From: Tistrella mobilis KA081020-065
GTDB lineage: Bacteria; Pseudomonadota; Alphaproteobacteria; Tistrellales; Tistrellaceae
Direction of reading: 5' to 3'
NCBI RefSeq assembly: GCF_000264455.2
Contig: NC_017956.1
Location: forward strand, 2,215,501 to 2,279,500
Length of the DNA stretch: 64,000 nt
In this document: positions 15,796 through 23,034 of the stretch, piece after piece
How the letters are laid out: every line of letters starts with the position of its first letter
Position numbering within the stretch: position 1 is the stretch's first letter
Notes under the pieces: generated by a model
Seen by the model: the letters and a program-made list of their open reading frames with translations, nothing else
Database searches by the model: none
Told to the model about the DNA's origin: nothing
Made by a program: the position numbers and the translations under genes

Positions 15796-17328
15796 TCAGC
15801 CGCGAGGTCCCGGCAGCCCGGCCTCGATGCCGTGGGTTGCGAGTTTTTCGTAGAATTGTGCCCGGGAAATCCCCAGCAGTTTCGCCGCCTGGGTCTTCAC
15901 CCCGCCCGCCGCGGCCAGAGCCCGGCGGATGGCATCGCGTTCAGCCGCCGCCAGCGCCTCACGCAGCGGTTCCACGGTCTCGGCGGCACTGGCCGGCCCG
16001 TCCGTCGCCACCGGATCGGCCCCCATCACCGGATCGGCCCCCACCACCGGATCGGCTACCGTCGTGCCGGGCTGCCCGGCGGCGATCAGCCCGTCCAGAT
16101 GGCCGGCATCGATTTCAGCCTCGTCGGTCAGCAGCGCCGCCCGTTCCAGCAGATTGGCAAGCTCGCGCACATTGCCCGGCCAGTCATGGCGCTGCAGCCG
16201 GGCGACCGCCCGATCGGTCAGCCGACGGGGCCGGCCGCCCTGTTCGATCGCCAGCCGTTCCAGCAGGGCATCGGCCAGCGGCTCGATATCGTCCAGCCGC
16301 TCGCGCAGCGGCGGCAGGCGCAGCGGCAATACGTTCAGGCGGTAATAAAGATCGGCGCGGAACCGGCCGTCCTCGACCATCCGGCCCAGATCGCGGCTGG
16401 TGGCCGCAATCACCCGCACATCCACCGGGATCACGCGATTGGAGCCCAAGGGCTCGACCTCGCGTTCCTGCAACACCCTGAGCAGCTTGGATTGCAGGCT
16501 GAGCGGCATGTCGCCGATCTCGTCCAGGAACAGCGTGCCGCCATGGGCCAGCCGGATCTTGCCGTCGCGCGGCTTGTTACCGGCACCGGTATAGGCGCCG
16601 GGCGCCACGCCGAACAGCTCCGCCTCCAGCAGGTTTTCGGGGATGGCGGCGGTGTTCACCCGCACCATCGGCCCGGCCTGCCGCTCGCTCGCCGCATGCA
16701 GCGCATGAGCCAGCATCTCCTTGCCGGTGCCGGTCTCGCCCAGCAGCAGCACGGTGATGTCACGCTCGGCCGCCCGGCGGGCCTGGCGCTTCAGCAGCCG
16801 CACCGCCTCGGAATTGCCGATGAACTGCGAGAAGCCGTATTTGGCCCGGCGGGCATCGGCCAGCTGGCGGCGGGCGGTTTCCAGATCGCGCTGCATCCCC
16901 TGAAACTTGTCGACCAGCGGCTTCAGCGACTGCACCCGGTCGTAGAGGATCATGCCCACCGCGCCCGAGACCCGGCCATCCTCGTCCTTCAGCGGGATGC
17001 GGCTGACCACCAGCTGGCGGCCTTCGACTTCGAAAATATCGATCAGATCCGCGCGGCCGCTGGCCACCACTTCGCGCAACCGGCTGTTGGGAATGATGTC
17101 CTCGACCGGTCGCCCTTCCACGGGGTCCATGCCGTTCCAGCCCAGGATCGCGCGGTATTTGTCGTTCATCCAGAGCACGGTGCCGGCGGCATCGATCAGG
17201 ACGGCGCCTTCATAGAGCTGGTCGAACAGCTCCACTGCCGCGCGCGCGACCCGGTCCCTGAGGCCCGCCTCGCGCGCGGCCGCGGCCCGGCGCCGGCGCG
17301 CCGCCACGCTGTCGATCAGCCGCTCCAT
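15796..17328 (-). CDS. Sigma-54-dependent transcriptional activator with PAS sensor
   Basis: The protein (510 residues from ATG 17328) is an NtrC-class activator that opens RpoN promoters by ATP hydrolysis. An N-terminal coiled region and PAS domain (GAVLIDAAGTVLWMNDKY) are followed by the AAA+ domain. This has Walker A GETGTGKE, the sigma-54 contact loop in the form GAYTGA in place of GAFTGA, Walker B TLFLDEIGDM and the Arg-finger region YYRLNVLPLRLPPLRER. A Fis-type helix-turn-helix (TQAAKLLGISRAQFYEKL) ends it. The linker before it contains an ADPV tandem repeat. GGGGGGAG precedes 17328; ATG 17364 is an alternative. It probably controls the adjacent transporter operon through the palindromes at 15725-15792. 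Confidence 0.9.
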   Translation of the reverse strand: MERLIDSVAARRRRAAAAREAGLRDRVARAAVELFDQLYEGAVLIDAAGTVLWMNDKYRAILGWNGMDPVEGRPVEDIIPNSRLREVVASGRADLIDIFEVEGRQLVVSRIPLKDEDGRVSGAVGMILYDRVQSLKPLVDKFQGMQRDLETARRQLADARRAKYGFSQFIGNSEAVRLLKRQARRAAERDITVLLLGETGTGKEMLAHALHAASERQAGPMVRVNTAAIPENLLEAELFGVAPGAYTGAGNKPRDGKIRLAHGGTLFLDEIGDMPLSLQSKLLRVLQEREVEPLGSNRVIPVDVRVIAATSRDLGRMVEDGRFRADLYYRLNVLPLRLPPLRERLDDIEPLADALLERLAIEQGGRPRRLTDRAVARLQRHDWPGNVRELANLLERAALLTDEAEIDAGHLDGLIAAGQPGTTVADPVVGADPVMGADPVATDGPASAAETVEPLREALAAAERDAIRRALAAAGGVKTQAAKLLGISRAQFYEKLATHGIEAGLPGPRG

Positions 17329-17454
17329 CCAGCCTGCATCTCCCCCCTGCCGGCACCTGGCCATTATGGACGGCCATCGCCCGCCGGAACCCTGGTGCCA
17401 AGCCTAGGCGCGCGTTACGGGCGATGCAAGCCGAAGGCCTCCGCTGTGCGGCGA

Positions 17455-18447
17455 CTACTCGCCTGCACGACGCACGGCACGGGCAAGGGCTGCGGGAACC
17501 ATGCTGATATGGCCTTCGCCAGGCACCACCAGCAGCTCCAGATGACCGGCATCGCCCTGCAGCTCGACCAGGCGTACATACATGTCCCGGACGCCGTCGA
17601 TCATTCGCGCCATGTTGCGGAAAGCGACACGTTCCGGCGTATCGTCCGCCTCCGGATCCTGCTCGGCACCACCGACGGCAAGCGTCAGATTCAATGCAGG
17701 CCGATCGGCCCGTGCCGCGAAATTCGCCTCCTCGGTCAGTAGTTCCCGATCGTTCCACCAGATCGACGGGCTGGAGGCCATCCAGCGCCGGAAGGTATGC
17801 GGCCGGGTGAACGCGGCGTGCAGCACGAAACGTCCGCCGAGCGAATGGCCGAACAGGCTCGCCCGGTCGTCGTTCACCGGGAAACGACGGACCACCTCGG
17901 GACGGATCTCGTTCAGAATGACGTCCAGAAACGCCTCGTCGCCACCGGTCGGCACTTTCGGTGCGCGCGTGCCCATGATCGACCGTCCCCGGGGTGTCAC
18001 CGCCGAGGTGAAATCCAGATAGCGCCGGGTAAGATCGAAGCCGATCACACCGGGATAGCCGATCGCCACCACCGCAATCGGCCGTTCCCACCCTAACAGC
18101 CTGGCCGTGGTACCGGCCACACCGAAGAAGGCATTGCCGTCGAGCACATAGAGCACCGGGAACCCGCCCGGCGGCGGGGTGACCGGCGGCACCGACACAT
18201 CCACCCGATAGGTCAGGCCGTTGCGCGCCGCCGTCAGGTCGAAAGCGTGCAGGCCCGGCGCCACCGGCACGGCATCCGCAACCCCGGGTGCCCCCGCAGC
18301 CCTGGCGGGCAGCGGCGTCCCCGAGAGCGCGAAGGCCAGAACGAAAGCGGCGGCAAAGGGCATCAGCGGGCGCAGCACGACGGGCATCTCCAGCAGGTCG
18401 ATCCGGGCGCCCATGGGACCGCAACTTGGATTGCGACGCAATCTCAT
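17455..18447 (-). CDS. Secreted alpha/beta-hydrolase of the Fes/IroE esterase type
   Basis: This is a 330-residue hydrolase with an export signal (hydrophobic stretch PFAAAFVLAFAL, likely cut after ARA). Catalytic motifs are Ser in FGHSLGG and His in GEGHISM. RYLDFTSAV and the segment around DVSVPP resemble periplasmic esterases of the enterobactin-esterase (IroE/Fes) family. It may act on siderophore esters or other acyl esters; no siderophore genes are nearby to support that. The start is uncertain: the frame opens at ATG 18447, but ATG 18387 would give a more normal signal peptide. It follows the ThDP-enzyme gene by 15 bases. Confidence 0.75.
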   Translation of the reverse strand: MRLRRNPSCGPMGARIDLLEMPVVLRPLMPFAAAFVLAFALSGTPLPARAAGAPGVADAVPVAPGLHAFDLTAARNGLTYRVDVSVPPVTPPPGGFPVLYVLDGNAFFGVAGTTARLLGWERPIAVVAIGYPGVIGFDLTRRYLDFTSAVTPRGRSIMGTRAPKVPTGGDEAFLDVILNEIRPEVVRRFPVNDDRASLFGHSLGGRFVLHAAFTRPHTFRRWMASSPSIWWNDRELLTEEANFAARADRPALNLTLAVGGAEQDPEADDTPERVAFRNMARMIDGVRDMYVRLVELQGDAGHLELLVVPGEGHISMVPAALARAVRRAGE

Positions 18448-18462
18448 TGAACGACATGCCGG

Positions 18463-20112
18463 TCAATACGGATCGGCACCGCCGATGGTGATCTCCAGAA
18501 CAGCCGGCCGCCCTGCCCCGAGCAACCCTGGCAGGCCGTCCCGGATTGCGGCCACGGTGTCGGCACGGAGATGCTCCACCCCCATCGACGCCGCCAGCTG
18601 ATCGAAGGCGATGGCGGGATCGTCCAGAACCATGCCGACGGCATGCCCTGCCGCAGCACTCTCCAGCCCCATCGCCGTCGCCGTCCGCATCAGAATGTCG
18701 TAGCGCCGGTTGTTCAGGATCACGAAGATGACCGGCAGCCGCAGCCGGGCGGCCGTCCACAGCGCCTGCGGCGCATACATGGCACCGCCATCACCCGTCA
18801 TGCACAGTACCGGCCGGCCGGTTGCGAGTGCGACGCCCGCAGCCGCCGGCATGCCCCAGCCCAGCCCGGCGCTGGCGACGAAATCATGCCGGTCGCCGAT
18901 GCCGCCCTGCCAGAGCCGGCGCAGCCCCCCGATCAGGGCCGAGGCCTCGTTGACCACGGTCACGCCCCGCGGGGCCGCCTTCAGCACCGCATCGGCGGCG
19001 ATCATCGGATGCAGCGGCAGCCGGTCGCGAAGCCTGTCGAGCCGCGCCGTGAAGCCGGCATCGGCGACCGCCTTCTCCGCCCGCCGCCGCATGGTGACGG
19101 CGGCGACGCCCGGCCGCGCCACGACCGCAGAGAGTGCGGCAAGGCCTGCCGCCGGATCGCCGCCGACCACCAGATCGGCCGCGACGTCGAGCCCGGGCGC
19201 CGCCGGATCGCGGGCCAGCTGGATGACCCGCATCCCCTGCGGCAGGGTGGGTCCGGGCCGGTAGTGATAGGGCCTGATCGCCCCCTCTCCCGCCAGCACC
19301 GCCAGCCGTGCGTCGCCGAGGATCGAGCGGATCTCCGCCAGATCGGGCGGCAGCACACCACGCCAGCCCGGGTGATCGGTCGGGAAAAGATGGGCGCGCG
19401 GCACCGGGGTCGCAAAGACCCGGCAGCCCGTGGCATCGGCAAAGGCGATCGCCGCCCTCATCCCCTGCGGCCCGGCCAGCGTGTCCGACACCAGAAGCAC
19501 CAGATCATCGGCCTCCGCACCTGCGATCATCGACGCCGCGGCATCGATGTCACCCGCAGCCGGGGCCGGCGCGGGAATGCGCGGCGGTGGCGGGTCGGCG
19601 GCGGCAAGCGTCAGATCGACCGGCAGCGACAGAAAGACCGGCCCCGGCGGCCAGGCCCGGGCCAGCGCAAAGGCCCGGCGCAGCACCTGGCCGGCATCCT
19701 CGGGCCGGGTCAGTTCATGGGCATGCTTCACCACCGGCCGGGCAATGCCCACCAGATCATCGGCCAGCCAGGGGGCGCGGATCAGATGCCGGCTGTCCTG
19801 CTGGCCGGCGATGACCACCAGCGGCGTGCGCATGCGCGCCGCCCCGATCATCGCCCCCATGGCATGGCCAAGCCCGGAAGCGGTGTGGAGATGGGCGACC
19901 CCCACCCTGCCGGCGGCATGGGCATAGCCGTCGGCCATGGCGACGGCGACTGCCTCCTGAAGCGCCGGCACATAGCTGAGCCCGGGTGCGCGGGCGACGG
20001 CATCGAGCAGAGGCAGTTCGGTGGAACCCGGATTGCCGAAGACGTGGGTAACGCCCTCATCCTCCAGCACCGCCGCGATCATCCGCGCGACCGACCTCTG
20101 CCCGTCCCCCAT
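18463..20112 (-). CDS. Thiamine-diphosphate-dependent decarboxylase, benzoylformate decarboxylase-like
   Basis: With ATG 20112 the protein has 549 residues, normal for this superfamily, and GGGGCGAG lies just upstream. VFGNPGSTELP, the activating Glu in ALQEA and a His in LHTASGLGHAMG match benzoylformate decarboxylase and its relatives. The ThDP-Mg site is MTGDGGAMY followed by ILNN. The reaction is probably non-oxidative decarboxylation or carboligation of a 2-oxo acid. Acetolactate-synthase-like annotation is possible but the N-terminus fits MdlC better. It shares a transcript with the esterase downstream. Confidence 0.82.
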   Translation of the reverse strand: MGDGQRSVARMIAAVLEDEGVTHVFGNPGSTELPLLDAVARAPGLSYVPALQEAVAVAMADGYAHAAGRVGVAHLHTASGLGHAMGAMIGAARMRTPLVVIAGQQDSRHLIRAPWLADDLVGIARPVVKHAHELTRPEDAGQVLRRAFALARAWPPGPVFLSLPVDLTLAAADPPPPRIPAPAPAAGDIDAAASMIAGAEADDLVLLVSDTLAGPQGMRAAIAFADATGCRVFATPVPRAHLFPTDHPGWRGVLPPDLAEIRSILGDARLAVLAGEGAIRPYHYRPGPTLPQGMRVIQLARDPAAPGLDVAADLVVGGDPAAGLAALSAVVARPGVAAVTMRRRAEKAVADAGFTARLDRLRDRLPLHPMIAADAVLKAAPRGVTVVNEASALIGGLRRLWQGGIGDRHDFVASAGLGWGMPAAAGVALATGRPVLCMTGDGGAMYAPQALWTAARLRLPVIFVILNNRRYDILMRTATAMGLESAAAGHAVGMVLDDPAIAFDQLAASMGVEHLRADTVAAIRDGLPGLLGAGRPAVLEITIGGADPY

Positions 20113-20243
20113 GTCGTCTCGCCCCTGCCGCTTCGTATCCGCATGATGATCGCGCATGGCGCACATCATTCTGCCGACAGTCGCGGCATCGCTTCAAGAC
20201 GGCAGACAGCAGGGGCGATTGACGATGTCTCGGGGTCCCCCCG

Positions 20244-21449
20244 TCAGGCGGCGCCGAGGATGGCCTCGTCGGTCACGCCGAACAGTTCGTAGCGGATGTT
20301 CGCGGGCGCGACCCCGGCCGCGATCAGGTGCCGGGCCTGCGCCTTCTGGAACGCCCGGGGCCCGCACATATAGACATCGACCTCGCGATCGGGCAGCAGC
20401 CCGGCGATGCGTTCCGCGTCGAAACGGCCGACCGAATGATGGGTCACGCCGACGCGGTCCGATGCGCCCGGGCGCTCATAGGCGATGTGCAGATCCAGGC
20501 CGGGCGTCGCCTCGGCCAGCGCGCGCAGATGGGCCCCGAAGGCATGGGTTTCGCCGTCAATCGCCGCATGGGCCCAGATCACCGGATGGTCTGGCCGCGT
20601 CGCCGCCAGGGTTTCCACCATGGCGAGCAGCGGCGTCTGGCCGACACCGGCACCCAGCAGCAGGATCGGCCGCGGCGTCTCCGCATCCAGGAAGAAGTCG
20701 CCCGCCGGCGGCGCCACCTCCAGCACCGCGCCGGGGCGGATCGTGTCGTGCAGCAGGCCCGAGCCACGGCCTTCGGGTTCACGCTTCACCGCGATCCGCC
20801 AGCGGCCGTTGGCGGCACGTCCGGCCAGGCTGTAATGGCGCAGCAGCTGGGTGCCGTCAGGCCGGGTCAGGCGCAGGGTCAGATACTGGCCGGGGGCGAA
20901 ATCCGGCAGTGCCCCCCCATCCTCGGGCGCCAGCAGGAAGCTCTTGATCACGCGGCTTTCCTCGGCGACCGCCTCGACCACGAAGTGGCGGAAACCGCGC
21001 CAGCCGCCCGGCCGTGCCGCGACCTCGCCGGCAAGCGCCGCCTCGCGATCGATGAACACCTTTGCGAGCAGACCATAGGCCTCGCCCCAGGCCGCCAGGA
21101 TCGGCGGTGTCGCCGCATCGCCCAGCACGTCCGAAATCGCGGCCAGCAGATTGGCCCCCACCACGTCGTACTGCTCGGGCCGAACCTGGACGGCGACATG
21201 CTTGTGGGCGATGCGTTCCACCGCACCCGCCAGCGCAGCCAGGTTGTCGATATGCTCGGCATAGGCCAGCACGGCCGCCGCCAGCGCCCGCGGCTGCGAC
21301 CCGTCGCGCTGATGCGCCGGATCGAACATCGCCGCGATCTCGGGGGCGGCCAGCAGGCGCTCGTAGAACCGGGTGGTGATGGCCTCGCCATGGGTGCGCA
21401 GCACGGGCACCGTTGCCTTGACGAGGGTAATGGTCGCGTCGCTCAACAT
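20244..21449 (-). CDS. hmp: Flavohemoglobin, nitric oxide dioxygenase
   Basis: The 401-residue enzyme turns NO and O2 into nitrate using NAD(P)H. The globin domain has Tyr29 (FYERLL) and proximal His84 (IAHKHVAVQVRPEQYDVVG). The FAD domain has LLRHYSLAG, and the NAD domain has GAGVGQTPLLAM and VYMCGPRAF. The C-terminus YELFGV is typical. GGAGAG six bases before ATG 21449 sets the start. It is a single gene with its own upstream region, where a perfect palindrome (21566-21592) could bind an NO-sensing regulator. Confidence 0.95.
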   Translation of the reverse strand: MLSDATITLVKATVPVLRTHGEAITTRFYERLLAAPEIAAMFDPAHQRDGSQPRALAAAVLAYAEHIDNLAALAGAVERIAHKHVAVQVRPEQYDVVGANLLAAISDVLGDAATPPILAAWGEAYGLLAKVFIDREAALAGEVAARPGGWRGFRHFVVEAVAEESRVIKSFLLAPEDGGALPDFAPGQYLTLRLTRPDGTQLLRHYSLAGRAANGRWRIAVKREPEGRGSGLLHDTIRPGAVLEVAPPAGDFFLDAETPRPILLLGAGVGQTPLLAMVETLAATRPDHPVIWAHAAIDGETHAFGAHLRALAEATPGLDLHIAYERPGASDRVGVTHHSVGRFDAERIAGLLPDREVDVYMCGPRAFQKAQARHLIAAGVAPANIRYELFGVTDEAILGAA

Positions 21450-21565
21450 GCGGAACTCTCCGGAACCTTCAACTCTGGCTTGGGTCCGGTGCATGGGCCG
21501 GATCCCGCAGGGCCGCCCTCCCGGACAAAAAGCTGTATATCAGACGTTTCTTATAATCGCCAAGG

Positions 21566-21592
21566 ATAACATTCATTTCATGCGAATGTTAT
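21566..21592. promoter_or_regulatory. Perfect 9+9 palindrome upstream of hmp
   Basis: ATAACATTC and GAATGTTAT are exact inverse repeats separated by nine bases, in an AT-rich patch between hmp (minus) and the glycosyltransferase operon (plus). The half-site AACATTCATTT resembles the NsrR half-site (AAGATGCATTT), so an NO-responsive operator for hmp is likely. The repeat overlaps the -35 area of one possible hmp promoter. Confidence 0.6.
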
Positions 21593-21711
21593 TGCATGGA
21601 TGTCGCGCCCTGCAGGCGCCCTTACCGCGTCGCGACATCCGTGCTTCCCGTCCGCTGCCGGCCTGTGCCATAGTCCGGCCGATATGCCGCAAGCTGGAGG
21701 TTCCGGAAGGC

Positions 21712-23034
21712 ATGAACGGCGCGCGTGTGCTGATCTACAGCCACGACAGCTTCGGGCTCGGCCATCTGCGCAGATGCCGCGAGATTGCACACGGCCTGGT
21801 CGGGACATTCCCCGACATGTCGGTGCTGATCCTCTCGGGTTCGCCGATCATCGGCAGCTTCGATTTCAGAACCCGCACCGACTTCGTCCGGGTGCCGGGT
21901 GTCATCAAGCTGCGCAATGGCGATTACACCTCGCTGAAGCTCAAGATGGACGTCGACCACATCCTGAAGCTCAGGGGGGCGATCATCGAGCGCACGGCCG
22001 AGGTGTTCGAGCCCGACGTGTTCATCGTGGACAAGGAACCGCTGGGCCTGCGCGGCGAGGTCGCCCGCACGCTGAAGCGGCTGAAGCGCCGCGGCACCCG
22101 GCTGGTGCTGGGGCTGCGCGATGTGATGGACGAGCCCGCCCAGCTGGCGCCCGAATGGAAGCGCAAGCGGGTGCTGCCGGCGTTGCGCGACCTTTACGAC
22201 GACATCTGGGTCTACGGCCTGCCGGAAATCCATGATCCGCTGGAAGGCATCGACCTGCCGGCGGATGTCCGCGCCAAGATGACCTTTACCGGCTATCTGC
22301 GCCGCGAAGCGGTACGTGGTGCTGCATCGGAACGCATCCAGTCGCTGATCGCCGGCGACCCGTACATCCTGGTCACCACCGGCGGCGGCGGTGATGGCGA
22401 AGAGCTGATCGACTGGGTGCTGAAGGCCTATGAACAGCACGGGTCCAGCCTGCCGCACCGCGCCGTGCTGGTGCTGGGGCCGTTCATGAACCGCGAGGCG
22501 CGCGACCGGCTGCGCGCCCGGGCCCAGAAGCTGGACAAGATCGAAGCGCTGACCTTCGATGCGAATATCGAGACCCTGATGGCCGGTGCGCTGGGTGTGG
22601 TCGCCATGGGCGGCTACAACACCTTCTGCGAGATCCTGTCGCTCGACAAGCCCGCGGTCATCGTGCCGCGCACCGAGCCCCGGCTGGAACAGTTCATCCG
22701 CGCCGACCGGGCCGAGAAGCTGGGGCTGACCCGGATGCTGCTCGATCCGGGCCCCGATCGCAGCGCCGCCGCCATGGCCGAGGCGCTGCAGGGCCTCGAG
22801 CGCCAGCCCCACCCGTCTTCGGTGATGCCGGCCGGCATGCTCGACGGGCTAGATGCGGTCGCCGATCTGGTGGGTGCCGAGTTGGACCGGCGCGGCCGGC
22901 CCCAGGCCCGGATCCGCCAGGTATCGGGCGGCGGTGCCGGCCTGCTTCAGGCCCCGCAGGCCGAGGCCGCGCCCGACGAGGAAACCTGGTCCGACGAGGC
23001 CGATTTCGGGGCACGACGCCGTGCGGCACCCTGA
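21712..23034 (+). CDS. Predicted glycosyltransferase (COG4671-like), first gene of a glycan operon
   Basis: The 440-residue cytoplasmic protein begins RVLIYSHDSFGLGHLRRCREI, the nucleotide-sugar glycosyltransferase B-fold pattern of the predicted glycosyltransferase group COG4671 (MurG-like). A second Rossmann half carries the TTGGGGDGEELID loop and VVAMGGYNTFCEILS, where donor sugar is bound. GGAGG lies 11 bases before the ATG. The last 45 residues are a poorly conserved acidic tail. A distant paralogue is encoded at 26141-27349 in the same operon. Donor and acceptor are unknown. Confidence 0.83.
   Translation: MNGARVLIYSHDSFGLGHLRRCREIAHGLVGTFPDMSVLILSGSPIIGSFDFRTRTDFVRVPGVIKLRNGDYTSLKLKMDVDHILKLRGAIIERTAEVFEPDVFIVDKEPLGLRGEVARTLKRLKRRGTRLVLGLRDVMDEPAQLAPEWKRKRVLPALRDLYDDIWVYGLPEIHDPLEGIDLPADVRAKMTFTGYLRREAVRGAASERIQSLIAGDPYILVTTGGGGDGEELIDWVLKAYEQHGSSLPHRAVLVLGPFMNREARDRLRARAQKLDKIEALTFDANIETLMAGALGVVAMGGYNTFCEILSLDKPAVIVPRTEPRLEQFIRADRAEKLGLTRMLLDPGPDRSAAAMAEALQGLERQPHPSSVMPAGMLDGLDAVADLVGAELDRRGRPQARIRQVSGGGAGLLQAPQAEAAPDEETWSDEADFGARRRAAP

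Follow-up and report, generated by a model that had tools for sequence, protein, structure and literature searches.

A palindrome upstream of hmp in Tistrella mobilis is probably the distal of two NsrR-type operators

The closest described systems are the operators of NsrR, an Rrf2-family Fe-S repressor. In E. coli these operators have a 23-bp 11-1-11 layout and their targets include hmp and ytfE (PMC5320621, PMC1274295), and in the accessible text on V. vulnificus, NsrR represses hmp through an 11-1-11 site (PMC8175989); the Tistrella locus shares the layout and the kind of predicted target. The S. coelicolor NsrR likewise has a 23-bp operator and, as predicted for Tistrella, targets hmp genes and nsrR itself; it does not read the central 7 of the 23 bp in its hmpA1 operator (PMC9338935), in keeping with a palindrome whose arms match around a free centre. 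In Neisseria, the norB-nirK intergenic region holds two candidate NsrR sites, as the hmp upstream region does here (PMC1274295), so paired NsrR sites as such are not new. According to the available part of the 2005 survey by Rodionov, NsrR was not found in Alphaproteobacteria except R. capsulatus E1F1 (PMC1274295); later work on the NsrR of Magnetospirillum, as far as its accessible text goes, also names Paracoccus denitrificans (PMC12774639).

We analysed a 64-kb stretch of the Tistrella mobilis KA081020-065 genome (the window), in which the original prediction had pointed to a perfect palindrome with 9-bp arms upstream of hmp. The palindrome is exactly as described: positions 21566-21592 read ATAACATTC-ATTTCATGC-GAATGTTAT, and further copies within three mismatches are found neither in the window nor in the whole 6,506,598-base genome. 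Perfect 9-bp arms with spacers of 3-12 bases yield 29 register entries at 12 distinct places in the window, and 20 Markov simulations of the window gave a mean of 7.2 such entries (range 2-12). Perfect arms by themselves are unremarkable in the window; among its perfect 9-bp palindromes, only 21566-21592 is AT-rich. A scan of the region for terminator hairpins found none. Directly beside the palindrome lies a second inverted repeat (21597-21639, GGATGTCGCG-N23-CGCGACATCC), one arm base of which is changed in the other Tistrella genome discussed below.

Homology places the likely hmp start codon at 21449 rather than 21494, which puts the palindrome's 23-bp core 119-141 bp upstream of it. A stricter promoter scan before hmp found none, and the promoter positions in Table 1 are inferred from a scan for hexamer pairs. 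Beyond hmp on the same strand, 15796-20169 encodes a benzoylformate-decarboxylase-like ThDP enzyme, an esterase-like protein, and a sigma-54 activator, none of which scores above the cut-off of its best family.

Table 1. Features at the hmp locus (window coordinates)
Feature	Position	Strand	Basis
hmp, NO-inducible flavohemoprotein	20244..21449	-	NF009805, 487.3 bits (cut-off 432); start by homology
Proximal NsrR-type operator, AAGAAACGTCTGATATACAGCTT on the hmp strand	21530..21552	.	Seedless matrix; overlaps candidate -10
Candidate hmp -10, TATACA	21534..21539	-	Best hexamer pair, spacer 18; kept in G001
Candidate hmp -35, TTGGCG	21558..21563	-	Between both operators; CTGGAG in G001
Palindrome, 9+9	21566..21592	.	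Exact; symmetry broken in G001
Distal NsrR-type operator, AACATTCATTTCATGCGAATGTT, 11-1-11	21568..21590	.	Within the palindrome; matrix scores, G001 ortholog
Divergent glycosyltransferase-like gene	21712..23034	+	Weak profile matches, all below cut-off; start by reading

For comparison we fetched 80 hmp loci from other genomes; most are named as Alphaproteobacteria, and the set includes a Pirellulales MAG, two Paenibacillus records, one MAG labelled Bordetella, and one labelled only Proteobacteria. One matrix was built from sites picked by an E. coli consensus, which 30 of the 80 loci matched at 16 or more of 23 positions (per-locus shuffle means 10.3-13.0, maxima 11-16). With this consensus-seeded matrix, 21568-21590 is the best place in the window (21.5 bits). 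Because a matrix from consensus-picked sites is circular, discovery was redone with a seedless symmetric Gibbs sampler trained on 72 non-redundant hmp upstreams from other genomes, with the Tistrella sequence left out. The best-scoring motif, AAGATGCATnnnnnATGCATCTT, is present in 32 of the 72 upstreams. This NsrR motif emerged in three of ten runs, which had the highest scores (880-881); the other seven led to lower-scoring motifs, twice to the symmetric nTGAAnnTGCnnnGCAnnTTCAn (44/72 and 47/72 upstreams, scores 772 and 804). The latter, in the hmp upstreams of L021-L100, may be coding sequence or the site of another regulator.

Scanned over the window, the seedless matrix ranks 21530-21552 first (17.4 bits) and 21568-21590 second (14.2 bits), and the third place reaches only 10.4 bits. 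The two top places are 38 bp apart and both precede hmp; the first was absent from the original prediction. A single random 6.5-Mb sequence with matching dinucleotide composition contained six places with at least 14.2 bits and one with at least 17.4, so the distal match alone is modest evidence. Chance does not account for two motif matches at hmp separated by 38 bp. A functionless palindrome would suit the dozen perfect 9-bp palindromes in the window and the modest score of this site taken by itself, but it is scarcely credible given where the two top places of 64 kb fall and the recurrence of the same spacing in many other hmp promoters. Taking an NsrR operator to be an 11-1-11 inverted repeat with half-sites near AAxATGCATTT, we found this layout at 21568-21590, whose left half matches 10 of 11 consensus positions and whose right half matches 7 of 11. 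Judged by these letters, the right half of the distal operator is weak. The orthologous site in the second Tistrella genome matches 10/11 and 9/11.

This second genome (G001), the sole other member of the genus among the 58 genomes compared, keeps the order of hmp and the divergent gene. Its palindrome site reads AAGATTCATTTCATAAGCATATT, in which the 9+9 symmetry is broken; the match to the E. coli-type NsrR consensus is 19/23, compared with 16/23 in our strain. By the seedless matrix, the distal site has 22.2 bits there versus 14.2 here (27.2 bits there with the consensus-seeded matrix), and the proximal site has 14.2 bits there versus 17.4 here. Between the two genomes, the distal site is 78% identical in its letters and the proximal site 83%; the gap reaches 67%, the hmp leader 72%, and the glycan side 88%. 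With site identities inside the 67-88% range of the flanks and a better fit in G001, the fit to the motif is conserved and the letters are not specially so. The original prediction treated the 9+9 arms as the unit, which the comparison does not uphold: the symmetry is lost while the 23-bp NsrR fit improves, so that the predicted element is 21568-21590 and the 9+9 arms are not the functional unit.

An influence on the divergent glycan gene had also been suggested, and it finds no support here. The best matches of that gene, to the MJ1255/VC2487 glycosyltransferase family (E 5.4e-7) and to MurG (E 6.5e-4), are both below cut-off, and the sole hint of a glycan-gene promoter touching the palindrome is a TATAAT at 21552-21557, read by eye on the glycan strand just beside it. 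Another regulator, for example one of the glycan gene, might read the exact 9+9 palindrome, which is unique in the genome, adjoins this TATAAT, and faces a glycan-side leader that is well conserved (88%); the loss of symmetry in G001 despite the kept gene order, together with the improved NsrR fit, makes this very unlikely.

The original prediction proposed a search for an nsrR gene, and the genome does contain an NsrR-like candidate. Six Rrf2 genes score above the Pfam cut-off, one of which lies on a separate replicon (C4:904325-904774, equal to L016:4326-4775, minus strand). The best NCBIfam family of its product is NsrR, at 139.9 bits (below the cut-off of 182), compared with 123.6 bits for RirA, and the PDB entry that it matches best, 5n07, is an NsrR. 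The protein has D8, C91, C98, and C104, which agree with the cluster ligands of S. coelicolor NsrR, three Cys and Asp8 (PMC5411485). The NsrR of G001 is 95% identical to it. An Rrf2 gene is present within the fetched DNA of 56 of the 80 hmp loci, and in 55 of these the nearest of the six Tistrella paralogs is the C4 protein. That a different Rrf2 protein (RirA-, SufR- or IscR-like) uses the site would be compatible with the six Rrf2 genes and with the RirA score; we regard it as very improbable, since the C4 protein scores higher for NsrR and the hmp-linked Rrf2 genes elsewhere resemble it most.

The motif occurs within 150 bp upstream of 44 of the 55 nsrR-like genes (0.6 expected from shuffles). 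Many of these sites are at the same time hmp sites, because a single intergenic region serves both genes. Of the 44, 16 belong to loci that have no site in the 300 bp before hmp and thus constitute new evidence. In five loci (L023, L058, L059, L063, and L079), the nsrR-like upstreams carry a variant 11-1-11 palindrome, AAnTGGtAT-N5-ATaCCAnTT, where other loci have AAGATGCAT-N5-ATGCATCTT. Four of the five are named Acetobacteraceae or relatives. The variant is reminiscent of the AATTGGTAG half in S. coelicolor hmpA1 and may reflect a shift in NsrR specificity.

A scan of both genomes with an IUPAC pattern allowing up to three mismatches gave 34 places here and 30 in G001, compared with 7 and 9 for the reversed pattern. 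We read the gene context at hmp, at nsrR, and at 12 further of the 34 places, of which only one (C2:133672) stands before a recognised NO-related gene. An operator precedes nsrR itself (C4:904823, 19.7 bits) and is letter-identical in G001; another precedes the ric/ytfE gene at C2:133672 (24.6 bits; 19.6 bits in the G001 counterpart). The same motif is found at other NsrR-type targets in both genomes, and the original prediction thereby passes its own check for similar sites at other NO genes. The C2 protein scores 218.3 with TIGR03652 (cut-off 204.7) and 250.9 with the YtfE model (cut-off 254). The ric gene of G001 (L135:1403-2000) lacks the N-terminal domain of the C2 copy, and its NsrR-type operator is still kept. 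The idea of a site for an NO regulator is well supported in silico by the 11-1-11 NsrR layout, an nsrR-like gene, and sites before ric/ytfE and nsrR, and gives way as to the unit; what began as an odd palindrome leads to a predicted three-gene NO regulon (hmp, ric, and nsrR) spread over three replicons.

Other NO-related genes gave negative results. The nnrS gene (C3:525297) has no site within its 1.5-kb flanks, and a search of the genome for an Hcp gene found none. As a denitrification source of NO, NirK was searched for, with three matches, none over cut-off. No match was found among plasmid records to the nsrR or ric stretch, in data from which such records may be left out. When both genomes were scanned with a covariance model of 30 operators, nothing came up at E<=10; this carries no weight, as scoring reached just 150 of 410 and 150 of 381 candidates. 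As for other classes of NO regulator, the palindrome contains, by reading, no GT-N7-AC as in a NorR activator site, and the NorR model, whose cut-off is 476 bits, gives the sigma-54 activator at 15799-17364 a score of 330. An NnrR/DNR (FNR-type) site, ctTTGcgnnnncgCAAag or CTTGATnnnnATCAAG in the accessible sources, is likewise absent from the palindrome by reading.

Paired sites were frequent in the hmp upstreams sampled. We counted places with at least 10 bits by the seedless matrix in 84 hmp upstreams (the 80 loci, the Tistrella genome, G001, L012, and L013). A site is present in 39, and 32 of these have two, spaced 36-40 bp apart in 30 cases and 49 and 51 bp apart in the remaining two. Over 20 rounds of local shuffles, a mean of 1.0 upstream had a site and none had two. 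Because the sampler used no more than one site from each upstream, the partner sites are largely independent of training; the two-site sample is uneven, 15 of the 32 being Methylobacterium records. A further 22 hmp loci were also scanned: all three from the same class have sites, two of them paired (40 and 41 bp; the 40-bp pair is letter-identical to L051) and one single. Among the 19 from other classes, six have sites, one of which has two sites 159 bp apart, and a pair spaced by 30-60 bp occurs in none of the six.

Of the 32 two-site loci, 26 have nsrR divergent to hmp, so there the pair may serve two genes, which is not the case in the Tistrella genome. This raises the alternative that the distal palindrome is a leftover from a past divergent nsrR, the arrangement of most relatives: the far operator once served nsrR, which is now on another replicon, and the proximal site alone matters for hmp today. 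The Tistrella nsrR has its own operator elsewhere, and by the seedless matrix the proximal site outscores the distal one, as such a history would have it. In G001, however, it is the distal site that has the better fit (22.2 vs 14.2 for the proximal one), and pairs without a divergent nsrR are also present in L013/L138, where the upstream gene is co-directional, and in L021, which has another divergent gene, besides Tistrella and G001 themselves; a further such pair, at 49 bp, is in L064, and L068 is too short to judge. We consider a leftover unlikely, both as regards the proximal site acting by itself and as regards the former service to nsrR. In 18 of the 32 two-site promoters, the -10 of the best hexamer pair falls at -4 to -2 relative to the proximal site, and in 17 its -35 falls at +13 or +14 of the distal site. 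Since TTGCAT and TAAAAG come from the operators themselves, this common geometry is suggestive only, and it is not the best one in Tistrella.

Taken together, the hmp promoter very probably carries two NsrR operators, of which the palindrome is the distal one, and the pair would repress hmp. Both sites, their presence in the second genome, the set of three genes with sites, and a regulator gene with the cluster ligands are established by the analysis, and from these we infer NsrR binding, repression, a response to NO, and the use of both sites. Without NO, one NsrR dimer would sit on 21530-21552, covering the candidate -10, and another on 21568-21590, just above the candidate -35, and RNA polymerase would be kept off. 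NO would attack the cluster, NsrR would let go, and the Hmp then made would remove the NO; NsrR would also control its own gene and ric/ytfE, for Fe-S cluster repair. Counting against NsrR are the modest 14.2-bit score of the palindrome, its 7/11 right half, its limited match to E. coli sites (12/23 with E. coli hmp), an NsrR protein below the family cut-off, site letters that are not specially conserved, an nnrS gene without a site, and the atypical geometry of pair and promoter.

More tentatively, it is possible that in Alphaproteobacteria two NsrR operators 36-40 bp apart commonly control hmp, their two dimers bracketing one core promoter and making the response steeper or the NO threshold higher than at the promoters of other classes with a single operator, and that the NO met by Tistrella comes partly from its own photoreactive siderophores. 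The paired operators raise the question of whether a second NsrR dimer sharpens the response of hmp to NO. According to the accessible text (PMC10391617), siderophores made by a strain of the species set NO free under UV light, and the regulon could shield the cell from its own product.

Our literature search, in which subscription literature was thinly covered, returned no title or abstract opening on paired NsrR operators at hmp. Letter by letter, the left half-site AACATTCATTT equals one half of the c0118 site (11/11), which is ChIP-positive in the E. coli CFT073 NsrR site list as far as accessible (PMC5320621). The full 23 bp match six E. coli sites at 11-17 of 23 positions (12/23 for the E. 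coli hmp site), and the Tistrella operator differs from those of E. coli in its weaker right half. CFT073 hmp is listed with one 11-1-11 site (PMC5320621), whereas Tistrella hmp has two. S. coelicolor differs in its half-site letters (AACACGAAT / AATTGGTAG) and in that ric is a predicted target in Tistrella, and the Neisseria norB-nirK pair serves other target genes (PMC1274295). In V. vulnificus, a single footprint (-2 to +18) lies between divergent nsrR and hmpA (PMC8175989), whereas Tistrella has two sites and its nsrR is elsewhere. The switch is of a known kind, and the paired layout alone is unusual.
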